Source of the DNA: Clostridia bacterium
GTDB taxonomy: Bacteria > Bacillota > Clostridia > Christensenellales > SZUA-584
NCBI GenBank assembly: GCA_018648645.1
Contig: JABGQS010000002.1
Location: forward strand, 62,001 to 126,000
Direction: 5' to 3'
DNA length: 64,000 nucleotides
The notes under the pieces were generated by a model. It was not told the origin of the DNA. It was given only the letters and a program-made list of their open reading frames with translations, and ran no database searches. The translations under genes and the position numbers were made by a program. Position 1 is the stretch's first letter, and the number at the start of each line of letters is the position of its first letter. Positions 9,205 to 32,891 of this stretch are shown here, in pieces.

Positions 9205-11160
9205 TTATATTTCTTTTATTCCAATACTTTTCAAATACTTGTATGTCCCTTCATAGAATGCGGGCTCTCTCGTTTTATCTCGATCATCTCCAAACGGTAC
9301 AAATATTACAAAACCTTGCCTTGCACGTGTCAATAAAACTCGATGTGCATTTTTAAGATAACTTTTATCAATATCATTATTTATATTTTGCCATTTTGTA
9401 CCTTTAAAATTGAAGTATTTAAATTGCCCATCAACGAATCGAAAATTAGCATCCCAGCACACAATAGTCCAATCTAATTCTAGCCCTTGAATATCAAACT
9501 CTGTGGCAGTGTCTTCAAGATAAAATGACGACCTCACATCATCGTCTTTATTTAAAAACCAATTCTTCGCCTCTGCCTTCGATTGAACCCATACACCAAA
9601 GCTTCGCAATCTTTTCGCACCAGAGCTAGCTGTTAAGCCATATCGTTCAGTTCCTCTGGCCATTTTTTGTACCCATTTCTTTGCTTTGTCTAGATCTCTC
9701 GTTAATACTATAGGATAATTTTGTGATAATTCTAAATACAGATGTCTAGCATTATTAACATCTACATCTAAAAGGGTTTTAACAAAATCTGATACTTTTT
9801 CACTTCGAAACGAACGTAGAGATACAGAAAGATGCAGTTCATCGGTCACTTTACAATCTAGTTCGCTTAATAATTTCTCTGCTCGGTTTTCTTTTGTGTA
9901 CTCAATATCATTGATTTTACTCGACACATAAATATCCCAGTGCGAAAACCTACCACGCAACGCATCGAACCACTCTAACAGACCAGCTTCTCCCCTATTT
10001 ATTTCTTGACCACCACCAATCAAACAAACAATCACAGCCCAATCGCTATGTCTATCCATAAAGCTTATCAAGAACTCGGGCTCTGAATCCAAGAAGTCTA
10101 GAACCCCCTTTTTTCGCACCATGAAATTCGATAGCGCCGAAGAATCCCAAGCGCGTTGTGCTTCATCGAATATGGCTACCTTTTCAATTGGCGCTTTGTC
10201 ACTTAGGATAGCCTCATCTCGAAAATGATGAATGTTTTGAATAAAGGATTTCGCTTTTTTCAATGCTAATGATTTTGTAACACCTTCCTTCTTGCTTTCA
10301 TCCCTAGCAAGTGCTTCTTGTAAAACATCAACCAGCGGCTGATTACCAGAAAGGAAAACCGCATGCTCCTCCTCTTCAAATTGATGGCGTTCGTTAGCTA
10401 TATTTAGACCCGCCAACGTTTTGCCAGCCCCTGGCACGCCCGTTAGAAAGCATATCGACTTTCTTTTATACCTCTTGCTGTTATCAATAATGTTATTTAT
10501 TGCTTTTGAAGTAACACCTAGATTAATAGCCCCAGAATCACTTCTTGAAATCTCCTCAACATTATGACCTCTATACAAAGCTTGTGCAGCTTCAATTATC
10601 GTCGGCGTTGGCATGTATTGAGATTCTATCCAATCAGAGTAATTGATATCACGATCCTCATTTATTAGTAAGAAGGATTCTATAGTCTTTTTTATATTTG
10701 ATTGATTACAAAGCAAAGCATCGAAAATTCCATCTTCCGATTTGTTAAACGTGTTCTCTTCGTCTTGTGCTTTAGTAGAAATTAATATTGGGACAAGAAT
10801 GTTGTTGTGACTTTCCTTATGAAAATATTTCAAATCAAGAGCATAGTCAAAAACTTGATTGATAGCTTGTTTCGGATAATACTTTTCTCCAACTTTAAAC
10901 TCCAACAAAAAAATATAGCCGTCAAGCAATAAAACATTGTCGATTCTGCTACCCATTCTTGGTATTGTATACTCAAATAATATATAGCCTCTTTTGAAGC
11001 CTCTCAATTCACTTTTAAGAATACTTATTTCTTCTTCCCAAGTATTTCTTTGCAAATCTTCTAAAGTAAATTGATTGTTATGAGTTAGTTTGCCTAGTAT
11101 CGAGCTCTTGTCTTCAACCAAAAACTTTCCAACGCTATTCGAGTAATATGCTCTGTTCAT
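9205..11160 (-). CDS. DUF2075-type P-loop helicase/ATPase with N-terminal PD-(D/E)xK nuclease-like region
   Basis: Walker A GVPGAGKTLAGLNIA; Walker B VAIFDEAQRAW; N-terminal RIDNVLLLDGYIFLLEFKVG fits D-Xn-ExK; locally AT-rich. Confidence 0.8.
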   Translation of the reverse strand: MNRAYYSNSVGKFLVEDKSSILGKLTHNNQFTLEDLQRNTWEEEISILKSELRGFKRGYILFEYTIPRMGSRIDNVLLLDGYIFLLEFKVGEKYYPKQAINQVFDYALDLKYFHKESHNNILVPILISTKAQDEENTFNKSEDGIFDALLCNQSNIKKTIESFLLINEDRDINYSDWIESQYMPTPTIIEAAQALYRGHNVEEISRSDSGAINLGVTSKAINNIIDNSKRYKRKSICFLTGVPGAGKTLAGLNIANERHQFEEEEHAVFLSGNQPLVDVLQEALARDESKKEGVTKSLALKKAKSFIQNIHHFRDEAILSDKAPIEKVAIFDEAQRAWDSSALSNFMVRKKGVLDFLDSEPEFLISFMDRHSDWAVIVCLIGGGQEINRGEAGLLEWFDALRGRFSHWDIYVSSKINDIEYTKENRAEKLLSELDCKVTDELHLSVSLRSFRSEKVSDFVKTLLDVDVNNARHLYLELSQNYPIVLTRDLDKAKKWVQKMARGTERYGLTASSGAKRLRSFGVWVQSKAEAKNWFLNKDDDVRSSFYLEDTATEFDIQGLELDWTIVCWDANFRFVDGQFKYFNFKGTKWQNINNDIDKSYLKNAHRVLLTRARQGFVIFVPFGDDRDKTREPAFYEGTYKYLKSIGIKEI

Positions 11161-11265: not shown

Positions 11266-12396
11266 CTACCCCAATTTGTCCACCATATCCAACCGCTCCC
11301 AAGGGAGGTCTAGGTTGGGGCGGCCGAAGTGGCCGTAGGACGCGGTTTGCAGGTAGATGGGTGCTCGCAGGTTAAGGCGCTCGATGATTGCCGCTGGGCG
11401 AAGATCGAACGTGTCGTCGATGCGCTGGGCCAGTTTGTCGTCGGGCATGGTGCCTGTGCCGAAGGTTTCTGCGTATATGGAGACGGGGTGCGCCACACCG
11501 ATGGCGTAGGCGACCTCGATTTCGCAGCGCTCGGCCAAGCCGGATGCGACCACGGTTTTGGCGATGTGGCGGGTGGCGTATGCTGCGGAGCGGTCTACTT
11601 TGCTTGGGTCTTTACCGGAGAACGCGCCGCCGCCGTGACGTGCGTATCCGCCGTATGTGTCGACGATGATTTTGCGTCCGGTGAGTCCGCTGTCGCCAGC
11701 GGGGCCGCCGATGACGAAGCGCCCTGTTGGGTTGACGTAAAACTTTGTGTGCTCATCTAGCAGATGCTCGCCAATAACAGGCTTTATCACGTGCTCGATG
11801 AGGTCGGTCTCGATTGTGTCGTGCGAGACGTCTTCGCTGTGCTGGGTGGAAACCACGATGGTGTCGACTCTGATTGGCGTAAAACCGTCATATTCTACCG
11901 TCACCTGCGCTTTACCGTCAGGACGGATGTATTTTAATGTACCGTCTTTGCGAACTTTTGCGAGGCGTTGCGTCAAGCGGTGTGCCAATGTGATGGGCAG
12001 CGGCATCAGCTCCGGTGTTTCTTTGCACGCGAATCCGAACATCATGCCTTGATCGCCCGCGCCTTGGTCTGCTTTGTCTACGCCCATTGCGATGTCGGGC
12101 GACTGCTCGTCTATAGAAAGTATGATGCCGCATGTGTCGGCATCGAACCCGTACTTTGCGCGGGTGAAGCCGATGTCGCGGATTGTTTTGCGCGCCGTTT
12201 TTGCGATGTCTACGTAGCAGTTGGTCGTGATCTCGCCCATGACGAGCACTAGCCCAGTGTTGACCGCGGTCTCGCATGCTACTCTGGCGTATGGGTCGTC
12301 AGTTAATATCGCGTCGAGAACGCTGTCGCTGATTTGGTCACAAATCTTGTCCGGATGACCTTCTGTTACTGACTCTGATGTAAATAGTCTTCTCAT
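11266..12396 (-). CDS. metK: S-adenosylmethionine synthase
   Basis: [49 protein letters not shown] signatures. Confidence 0.97.
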
Positions 12397-12461: not shown

Positions 12462-12550
12462 ATCCTCATCTTTCGGGAATTGGCACCTTGGCGTAACGCC
12501 TGGTTGCCGGGTTTCATAGGGCCCGTCCCTCCACCGCTCTTGATAAGGGG
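12462..12550 (-). promoter_or_regulatory. SAM-I (S-box) riboswitch aptamer
   Basis: Minus strand: CTTATCAAGAGCGGTGGAGGGACGGGCCCTATGAAACCCGGCAACC...GGTGCCAATTCC; matches S-box conserved core; directly upstream of metK. Confidence 0.95.
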
Positions 12551-23769: not shown

Positions 23770-24564
23770 TCAGATGAAACTTTTTGTGATTGCAGCGTAT
23801 ATTCCCCAACTAATAGCATTGGCAGCGAATGTGAATATTAGCAGACGCCACTTATTAATACCCATATACTTCTTTCTATAAAACATATACTCAGCCCCAA
23901 ACACAATGAGTTCCAGAATAAGCACGAGCCAGAAATAGCTTACTCTGAACTGCCACATTGCTATGAGCAAAATAATATTCATTACAGGGTTTGTCACTAA
24001 ATTAGCAAACAATACATATCTATATGGCTTTATTTTGAAAAGAAGAGCCGCAAGAAATTCTATTAACAGTGCAACACAGCAGGCAAAAATGAGTGGAATC
24101 AGTTGGTATCCTGAGTAAAAATATTTTAAAAAATCGTATTTTACCAAACTACGCTTTAGTAAATTTCTCTCTACATTATAGTGATAATTTGAATTGTCAA
24201 TCAAATCAATTACTCTTGAGTGCTGCACTTCACCATCAGAAAAGTTTATCATAATCTGAAAACTTTTAAAATGATTCGCTTCATTTGTGAAACCAAATAT
24301 CCGTTCAACCCGATTCTCCGTTCTCTTTATCCAATAGTCTCCGAAAGAGTTGAACCTTTCCATTGATGAGTATTCATACATCAATTCCTTGTTGTCATTC
24401 TCCTCATATCCATATATGGTTAGTGTTTCTATATTACTGCAATCGTCTAGTAGCAATTCGTGCGTATATTTTTCAGGAATTGCAGGGTTAGCAAAGGCGA
24501 TTGTCGGGAAAGTGAGCAGCAATAGCAACACTAGAATTGCGAATAGTGACTTTTTCTTGCGCAT
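23770..24564 (-). CDS. Hypothetical secreted/membrane protein
   Basis: MRKKKSLFAILVLLLLLTFPTIAFANPAIPEKYTHELLLDDCSN signal peptide, multiple TM segments C-terminally; RBS aggagg. Confidence 0.75.
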   Translation of the reverse strand: MRKKKSLFAILVLLLLLTFPTIAFANPAIPEKYTHELLLDDCSNIETLTIYGYEENDNKELMYEYSSMERFNSFGDYWIKRTENRVERIFGFTNEANHFKSFQIMINFSDGEVQHSRVIDLIDNSNYHYNVERNLLKRSLVKYDFLKYFYSGYQLIPLIFACCVALLIEFLAALLFKIKPYRYVLFANLVTNPVMNIILLIAMWQFRVSYFWLVLILELIVFGAEYMFYRKKYMGINKWRLLIFTFAANAISWGIYAAITKSFI

Positions 24565-24651
24565 GAGTTTTCCTCCAATAAAAGAAGTTCTTGTTATATT
24601 ATACCATAGAATTGTGATTGAGAATGTTGAATTGTAAAAAGTTTTGTCGCG

Positions 24652-24891
24652 ATAAAAGCCGGCTAAAGCCGGGGCGGTGGCTGACCTGGTTTTTTCCCCC
24701 ACATTCGCCGGCGGGACGTTTCGCTACTAAGGCGTTTGCCTCCCCACTACTGGGCCTCTCGGGAAACACTTGCGTGCACCCGGCCGGACTGACATCTAAA
24801 CCGCGCTATGCTCACCGGGCAATTTTACCCGGCTTACGTGGATCGTTTTGCCCGCGACTGGCATCGACTTTCAACCACAGACCCACCGCCT
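24652..24891 (-). ncRNA. Free-standing structured small RNA candidate (~240 nt)
   Basis: Perfect promoter on minus strand (TTGACA 24927-24922, 17-nt spacer, TATAAT 24904-24899); 5' GGCGGTGG (24890-24883) pairs with 3' CCACCGCC (24680-24673); internal hairpins; terminator CCGGC-TTTA-GCCGGCTTTT at 24654-24674; no convincing ORF. Confidence 0.75.
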
Positions 24892-24898
24892 ATTGCTA

Positions 24899-24927
24899 AT
24901 TATACGTGCTGCAAAAACGTGTGTCAA
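24899..24927 (-). promoter_or_regulatory. Consensus sigma-A promoter of ncRNA candidate
   Basis: TTGACA-N17-TATAAT exact. Confidence 0.85.
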
Positions 24928-25026
24928 TTGCGCGTGGTGCAGCGCAGGGACAAGAAACTGCAACTATTGCAAATTAATGCTTTCATGTTATAATAACAGT
25001 GATTAAGACTGCTATAAACGAAAACG

Positions 25027-25344
25027 ATGAAAATTGAGGTGTTGAGAATGGCAGGAAGCGATTATAAGGCAATGAGTGAAAGCGAACTTAGAGGCGTTGC
25101 ACAGCGGCGTTATTTTATCAAGCGCGGGTTTTATTATCATTTTGGTGTGTTTTTGGTTGTGTGCGCGGTGATGCTGCTTCTCTATTTTTTGACCGGCGAA
25201 GGGTATCCTTGGTTTGCATGGCCGATTGGGCTTTGGGGACTGTTTATTGTCGGGCATATCGTTGGCACGATTAACTCGCTAAGAAGAATTGACGGGAAAC
25301 CGAGCGCGGTGGACAGAGAGATGAACCGATTGCGCAAAAAATAA
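25027..25344 (+). CDS. 2TM domain-containing protein
   Basis: Two hydrophobic segments flanked by RRYFIKRGFYYHFGVFLVV and FVIGH-like/NSLRRIDG sequence. Confidence 0.75.
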   Translation: MKIEVLRMAGSDYKAMSESELRGVAQRRYFIKRGFYYHFGVFLVVCAVMLLLYFLTGEGYPWFAWPIGLWGLFIVGHIVGTINSLRRIDGKPSAVDREMNRLRKK

Positions 25345-25438: not shown

Positions 25439-25499
25439 TGTGGCACATCGCTAAACACGCCCTTGATAAGGGACACCGAATAGAAAGGCGGTGCTTGCC

Positions 25500-26432
25500 A
25501 TGATTTACTATCACAAAACGGAAGAAAACAAGCTCATAAACCAAGACGCTCCGTGCCCGGGTACGTGGATTCATCTTCTTGACCCGACGCAGCAGGAGAT
25601 TGACGACATTGCTATGGCGCTGGGCGTTGAGCAGGATTTTCTTACCGCGGCACTTGACGAAGAAGAAACGCCTCATACAGACAGAGAGGACGACCAAACG
25701 CTTATTGTCGTCGACATTCCTGTCGTCGAGCCGGAAGGCACTTCATTTTTGTATAACTCCATACCATTGGCTATTATACTGCTGCCCGACATGGTCATTA
25801 CTGTGTGCCTGGAGGAAACCACAATTATCGAAGACTTTATGGAAAACCGTGTGCGCGGGTTTGACACGTGCAAAAAAACGCGGTTTGTTTTGCAGCTGCT
25901 TTATAAGTCGAGCACGAAGTATTTGCAGTATCTGAGGCAGATAGACAAAGCAACGACCATTGTCGAGAATGCGCTGCACAAGAACATGAAAAACCGCGAG
26001 CTTATGGGAATGCTCAAGCTCGAAAAATCGCTGGTGTTCTTTTCGACATCACTGAAAAGCAACGATATTGTGCTTGAAAAGCTGACCAAAACGAGCATCA
26101 TAAAGAAGTACCCCGAGGACACAGATTTACTGGAAGACGTTATTATCGAGAACAAGCAGGCGATTGAGATGGCGGAGATATACCGCAACATTTTGACGGG
26201 AACGATGACAACGTTTGCTTCCATCATCAGCAACAACTTAAACAACGTCATGAAGTTCTTGACCGCGATTACCATTATCATCGCTGTCCCAACGCTGATT
26301 GCAAGCTTTTGGGGCATGAATGTGCCGGTGCCGTTTGCGGGCACGCCGTGGGGCTTTGGCATTATGATGGGGCTCTCGCTGTTGTTTGCAGGCGTTACCG
26401 TGTTTATATTGTGGCGAAGAAGGATGTTGTAA
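25500..26432 (+). CDS. corA: CorA family magnesium/divalent cation transporter
   Basis: C-terminal TM with GMNVPVPF (GMN motif) ...ASFWGMN. Confidence 0.95.
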   Translation: MIYYHKTEENKLINQDAPCPGTWIHLLDPTQQEIDDIAMALGVEQDFLTAALDEEETPHTDREDDQTLIVVDIPVVEPEGTSFLYNSIPLAIILLPDMVITVCLEETTIIEDFMENRVRGFDTCKKTRFVLQLLYKSSTKYLQYLRQIDKATTIVENALHKNMKNRELMGMLKLEKSLVFFSTSLKSNDIVLEKLTKTSIIKKYPEDTDLLEDVIIENKQAIEMAEIYRNILTGTMTTFASIISNNLNNVMKFLTAITIIIAVPTLIASFWGMNVPVPFAGTPWGFGIMMGLSLLFAGVTVFILWRRRML

Positions 26433-32862: not shown

Positions 32863-32891
32863 TTGACATCCTTTTTTGGTTGACCTATAAT
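32863..32891 (+). promoter_or_regulatory. Consensus sigma-A promoter upstream of greA-lysS
   Basis: TTGACA (32863-32868), 17-nt spacer, TATAAT (32886-32891). Confidence 0.85.

Follow-up and report, generated by a model that had tools for sequence, protein, structure and literature searches.

The window analysed here, a stretch of 64,000 nt from a Clostridia bacterium, holds a segment on its minus strand that begins behind an exact consensus promoter and lies between a divergent corA gene and a gene for a membrane protein. The question raised by this locus is which RNA is made there, whether that RNA stands alone or leads into the downstream gene, and what it may do in the cell.

Identity and ends of the RNA

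The first-pass annotation had guessed at a free-standing structured RNA, naming a raiA-motif RNA first and a 6S-type RNA or a new class as other options, and had proposed a cmscan search against Rfam. That search (Rfam 15) returned RF03072, the raiA RNA called ModT in C. difficile, at 24891-24672 (-) with 179.6 bits and E 1.1e-45, the curated gathering score being 101.3 bits. The match spanned model positions 1-209 of 209, so the first-named guess was right, and it is virtually certain that 24891-24672 (-) is a member of the raiA (ModT) family. This kind of RNA is already described, and the segment is a further, largely ordinary member of it. A genome-wide search found a single copy in the 2.67 Mb, 95% complete source genome. 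The RNA and its surroundings comprise the following features:

24899-24927 (-): sigma-A (sigma-70) type promoter TTGACA-N17-TATAAT, 12/12 consensus match
24672-24891 (-): raiA RNA, complete motif of 220 nt, from cmscan and covariation; RNA position 1 is 24891
24659-24672 (-): terminator-like hairpin CCGGC-TTTA-GCCGG, then CTTTTATCG; -8.2 kcal/mol
23770-24564 (-): downstream gene for a 264-aa predicted membrane protein, outside the RNA unit; no Pfam or NCBIfam family
25491-26432 (+): divergent corA, a CorA-like Mg2+ transporter gene (PF01544, 2e-52; tblastn synteny)

The exact promoter reported earlier on the minus strand was recovered with all 12 positions matching at 24927-24899, and its position places the expected start of transcription at ~24892-24890 (-). 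With a spacing of 16-18 nt allowed, both strands of the 64 kb hold only two exact consensus promoters, this one and another that starts at 32863 (+). Near-consensus promoters were also found 5' of the raiA RNA in most of 25 loci, with a mean best score of 9.8/12 vs 7.6 in shuffled sequence. At the opposite end, the terminator had been called perfect. The hairpin and the following CTTTTATCG are indeed present, but the stem has 5 bp, the U-tract is weak with only four consecutive T, and comparable sites number 3 in 1 kb vs 1.4 expected by chance; taken by itself, the hairpin does no better than chance. Terminators were seen at only some of the 25 raiA RNA loci, which agrees with a published observation that the long isoform does not occur in every family member (PMC11706538). 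The transcript is predicted to run for ~220-240 nt from the sigma-A promoter to the short terminator, and the size of ~240 nt claimed at first fits a motif of 220 nt that reaches about 240 nt with the terminator included. The description of a GC-rich structured RNA segment lacking a good ORF within AT-richer surroundings also stood, with an RF03072 member at a GC content of 0.60 between flanks at 0.39 and 0.29; equally GC-rich 220-nt stretches make up 1% of the window.

Neighbouring genes and the possibility of a leader

Rfam types RF03072 as 'Cis-reg; riboswitch', and the RNA could accordingly be read as a riboswitch or leader acting in cis on the gene for the 264-aa membrane protein. The two share a strand, the motif ends ~107 nt 5' of the ATG at 24564, and an ORF frame extends from inside the RNA into the gene. 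However, the terminator-like hairpin stands between them, and the gene has its own Shine-Dalgarno sequence GGAGG and its own extended -10 (TATGGTATAAT). We compared the locus across five members of the same family, namely the source genome and four other genomes. The results showed that corA adjoins the raiA RNA in all five (tblastn) and that radC, together with S4-domain and ispDF genes where the alignment shows them, is kept 5' of the RNA, whereas the 3' neighbour differs among the five members, leaving no fixed downstream gene. No relative of the 264-aa protein was detected in the four other family genomes, all of which carry the RNA. The RNA of the window is thus flanked by corA/2TM on one side and by an orphan membrane gene on the other. 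The 264-aa protein is a lineage-specific orphan; it has a signal peptide-like start, and among the genomes sampled from the order only two showed similarity to it, which was weak (E 6e-5 and 3e-4).

Within the RNA family, comFC upstream (74%) and the raiA gene downstream (66%) are frequent but non-obligatory neighbours. At this locus the raiA gene is not next to the RNA and comFC is not among the flanking genes; the S30AE (RaiA/HPF) gene, from which the RNA takes its name, lies ~91 kb away (C12:178000 vs 86672). By comparison, an S30AE gene stands directly 3' of the RNA, within ~0.5 kb and on the same strand, in five other genomes of the order (G005, G019, G034, G046 and G056). The C. difficile RNA likewise has no raiA neighbour (PMC11706538), and this neighbour therefore does not define the family.

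Since the downstream gene is not kept and the raiA protein gene is ~91 kb off, control of the membrane protein gene in cis is very unlikely. Published family members act in trans, and other clostridial copies can substitute for the RNA in C. difficile (PMC11706538). The consensus promoter, the terminator-like hairpin, the unconserved downstream gene and this published trans-complementation indicate that the raiA RNA most likely forms a unit of its own, as the first-pass annotation had held, and we consider it a trans-acting RNA in its own right with good confidence.

A recognised cis-regulatory RNA does occur elsewhere in the window: a SAM-I riboswitch (RF00162, 77 bits) at 12463-12549 (-), directly 5' of a metK-like gene at 11266-12396 (-) that encodes an S-adenosylmethionine synthetase judging from its sequence, an ordinary arrangement. 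A 651-aa ORF at 9205-11160 (-) combines a nuclease-like N-terminus with a helicase-like ATPase part and is possibly of the DUF2075 type.

Secondary structure and covariation

The structural elements discussed below are located as follows:

24883-24890 (-): 5' strand of P1, GGCGGTGG, 8 bp with 24680-24673; covaries in relatives
24673-24680 (-): 3' strand of P1, CCACCGCC, pairing with 24890-24883
24853-24859 (-): P3 loop AGTCGCG, 5' side of pk-1, RNA 33-39, pairing with 24805-24799
24814-24833 (-): P5 hairpin CCGGG-TAAAATTG-CCCGG, -13.2 kcal/mol, z -3.8; five of six pairs covary
24799-24805 (-): pk-loop CGCGGTT, 3' side of pk-1, RNA 87-93, pairing with the P3 loop
24760-24782 (-): P6 hairpin, extended in this copy and closed by a GCAA tetraloop; exceeds the consensus and family members by ~8-13 nt

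We aligned 24 clostridial raiA RNA copies and counted pairs on the revised structure (P1, P3-P8 and pk-1). Compensatory changes were found at 30 of the 53 pairs, and the covariation score was 0.447, compared with 0.159 in shuffles. In these 24 sequences, 94.6% of cells were paired, vs 79.2 +/- 0.7% in shuffles and at most 46.7% in slid structures, although the structure was drawn on the window sequence, which favours this figure in one control; the compensatory counts are independent of that. Compensatory pairs were held by 9 of 11 helices, while P3b and a 2-bp helix within P7 were nearly invariant. Covariation on clostridial homologues, which the first-pass annotation had named as a check, thus bears out the structure, and two pairings that it had read directly were recovered as well: the ends of the RNA are exactly complementary over the 8 bp of P1, and its internal CCGGG/CCCGG hairpin is P5. 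Single-sequence folding energy, by contrast, hardly set the raiA RNA apart from shuffled sequence (z -1.5) and was dropped as proof of a structured RNA. The case for the RNA is settled by the covariance model and covariation, not by folding energy.

The published pk-1 pseudoknot, which joins the P3 loop to the P5-P6 junction by 7 bp, holds in the window copy as predicted from its sequence: positions 33-39 and 87-93 can all pair, two of them as G-U. Among the aligned copies, pair 39-87 is A-U in 12 sequences and G-C in 11, and pair 35-91 is U-G, C-G or A-U. Pairs 36-38/88-90 are invariant, and the outermost pair, 33-93, is lost in 9 of the 24. A second published pseudoknot, pk-2, joins the pk-loop to J4-1c by 2 bp. 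The cryo-EM study names the U19-A23 turn, A28 and A43-A46 as conserved unpaired residues under the same numbering (PMC11751092), and U19-G20-A21-A22-A23, A28 and A43-A46 are all kept in the window copy.

Compared with known raiA/ModT RNAs, the window copy shares P1, P3, P4, P5, P6, P7, P8, pk-1, the invariant residues and the sigma-A promoter, and its terminator-like hairpin would yield a longer isoform of the kind known from C. difficile. It differs in the length and GCAA loop of P6, in having a divergent corA gene instead of an S30AE neighbour, and at RNA position 101, which is C here, C or G in its family, and A in all other aligned sequences. Copies from other families (L008, L013, L014, L016 and L022) carry insertions of ~55-95 nt in the P6 hairpin.

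Two further readings of the segment were weighed. 6S RNA and OLE, ROOL and GOLLD are likewise free-standing structured bacterial RNAs, and the long closing helix with internal loops looks superficially like 6S; however, their models do not match the segment, and among 4227 families scanned none besides raiA RNA, 6S included, reached E <= 1 in 24500-25100. Together with the full-length RF03072 match, this refutes the earlier suggestions of a 6S-type RNA or a new class, for which the probability is negligible. It is just as hard to credit that the segment is a coding sequence or decayed repeat: a 93-aa ORF does lie antisense to the RNA at 24618-24899 (+), but some length differences among the family homologues (220, 205, 212, 209 and 209 nt) are not divisible by three, helix changes are compensatory, and the genome holds one copy only.

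Distribution, sporulation genes and function

The same covariance-model search detected the raiA RNA in 25 of the 61 genomes of the order sample. With a DNA pattern, close relatives turned up both in clostridial MAGs, including Christensenellaceae AS01afH2WH_49 and Eubacteriales STB_2, and in Actinomycetota, such as Acidimicrobiaceae MAGs. Carriage on a phage or plasmid was rejected. The raiA RNA had no match in phages; a tight DNA pattern found no viral contig, and none of the three viral contigs recovered with a looser pattern contained a raiA RNA that reached the gathering score. The sole plasmid match was a 2.6 Mb Acetoanaerobium record, labelled as a plasmid but of chromosome size.

We then set the presence of the RNA against that of sporulation genes, which an RNA devoted to sporulation alone would be expected to accompany. 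Spo0A was near-universal (55/61) and hence uninformative. SpoIVA was rarer in genomes with the RNA than in those without it (15/25 vs 33/36; Fisher p 0.004), and the difference persisted when each family was represented by a single genome (p 0.025), although genome size also differs between the groups. A link of the RNA with sporulation genes was therefore rejected, SpoIVA being rarer, not commoner, among carriers. GGDEF proteins were found in 18 of 25 carriers and 11 of 36 non-carriers (raw p 0.002), an association that is not claimed because p rose to 0.15 with one genome per family and to 0.11 after genome size.

In the source genome (G000), Spo0A is present (two Spo0A_C matches) along with six GGDEF matches, and SpoIVA, SpoVAC/EB and SASP were not detected. 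In the same family, SpoIVA was found in G002-G004 and SpoVAC/EB in G001-G004. The absence of all three markers at 95% completeness suggests that the source lineage has probably lost sporulation, rather than that the genes fall in an assembly gap. In the source genome, a Spo0A_C gene is ~68 kb from the raiA RNA; at two family loci (L050 and L052; G001:C229 and G003:C35), such a gene lies ~8-10 kb away on the same strand.

Published work offers a basis for the function of the RNA. In exponentially growing C. difficile, the RNA is comparable to rRNA in amount and stability, and it becomes depleted once cells are in stationary phase; mutants that lack it enter stationary phase late and, via raised c-di-GMP, sporulate less, and probing suggests that proteins are bound to it (PMC11706538). 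As reported in papers citing Soares et al. 2024, loss of function in C. acetobutylicum causes sporulation and aggregation defects. Cryo-EM has shown that raiA RNA folds as a compact monomer (PMC11751092, PMC12286853), unlike GOLLD, ROOL and OLE (PMC12286853).

By analogy, with function transferred from distant clostridia, the window RNA would be made abundantly in growing cells as a stable molecule of ~220-240 nt, would adopt the compact monomeric fold known from cryo-EM, and would act in trans, probably with protein partners, to set when growing cells move into stationary phase, an effect that in C. difficile shows partly through c-di-GMP levels. Its activity is most likely that of a structural RNA that binds a protein or ligand, rather than that of an antisense sRNA or a riboswitch, and confidence in any specific molecular mechanism for raiA RNA is low. 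Taken as a whole, the explanation that this is a raiA RNA, free under a consensus sigma-A promoter, and that it would time the growth-to-stationary passage in trans like its relatives is held with great confidence. The sporulation phenotype cannot apply as such to the source organism, in which the tested sporulation genes are absent. Because in this family the RNA is locked beside a divergent corA-like Mg2+ transporter gene and has here been kept despite the apparent loss of spores, its core task might instead be vegetative, possibly in Mg2+ or ion homeostasis, but we regard this as unlikely.

The retention of the RNA in a genome without these sporulation genes, and its failure to follow them in the order sample, support a role broader than sporulation. 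The ModT authors had already proposed such a role, and many carriers are non-spore-forming according to the literature. The raiA RNA is among the most abundant clostridial RNAs, and a further family member matters little by itself. The source lineage offers a natural case that keeps the RNA, Spo0A and GGDEF proteins with no detectable SpoIVA, SpoVAC/EB or SASP, and this retention, together with the pattern in the order sample, points outside sporulation, as the ModT authors proposed.
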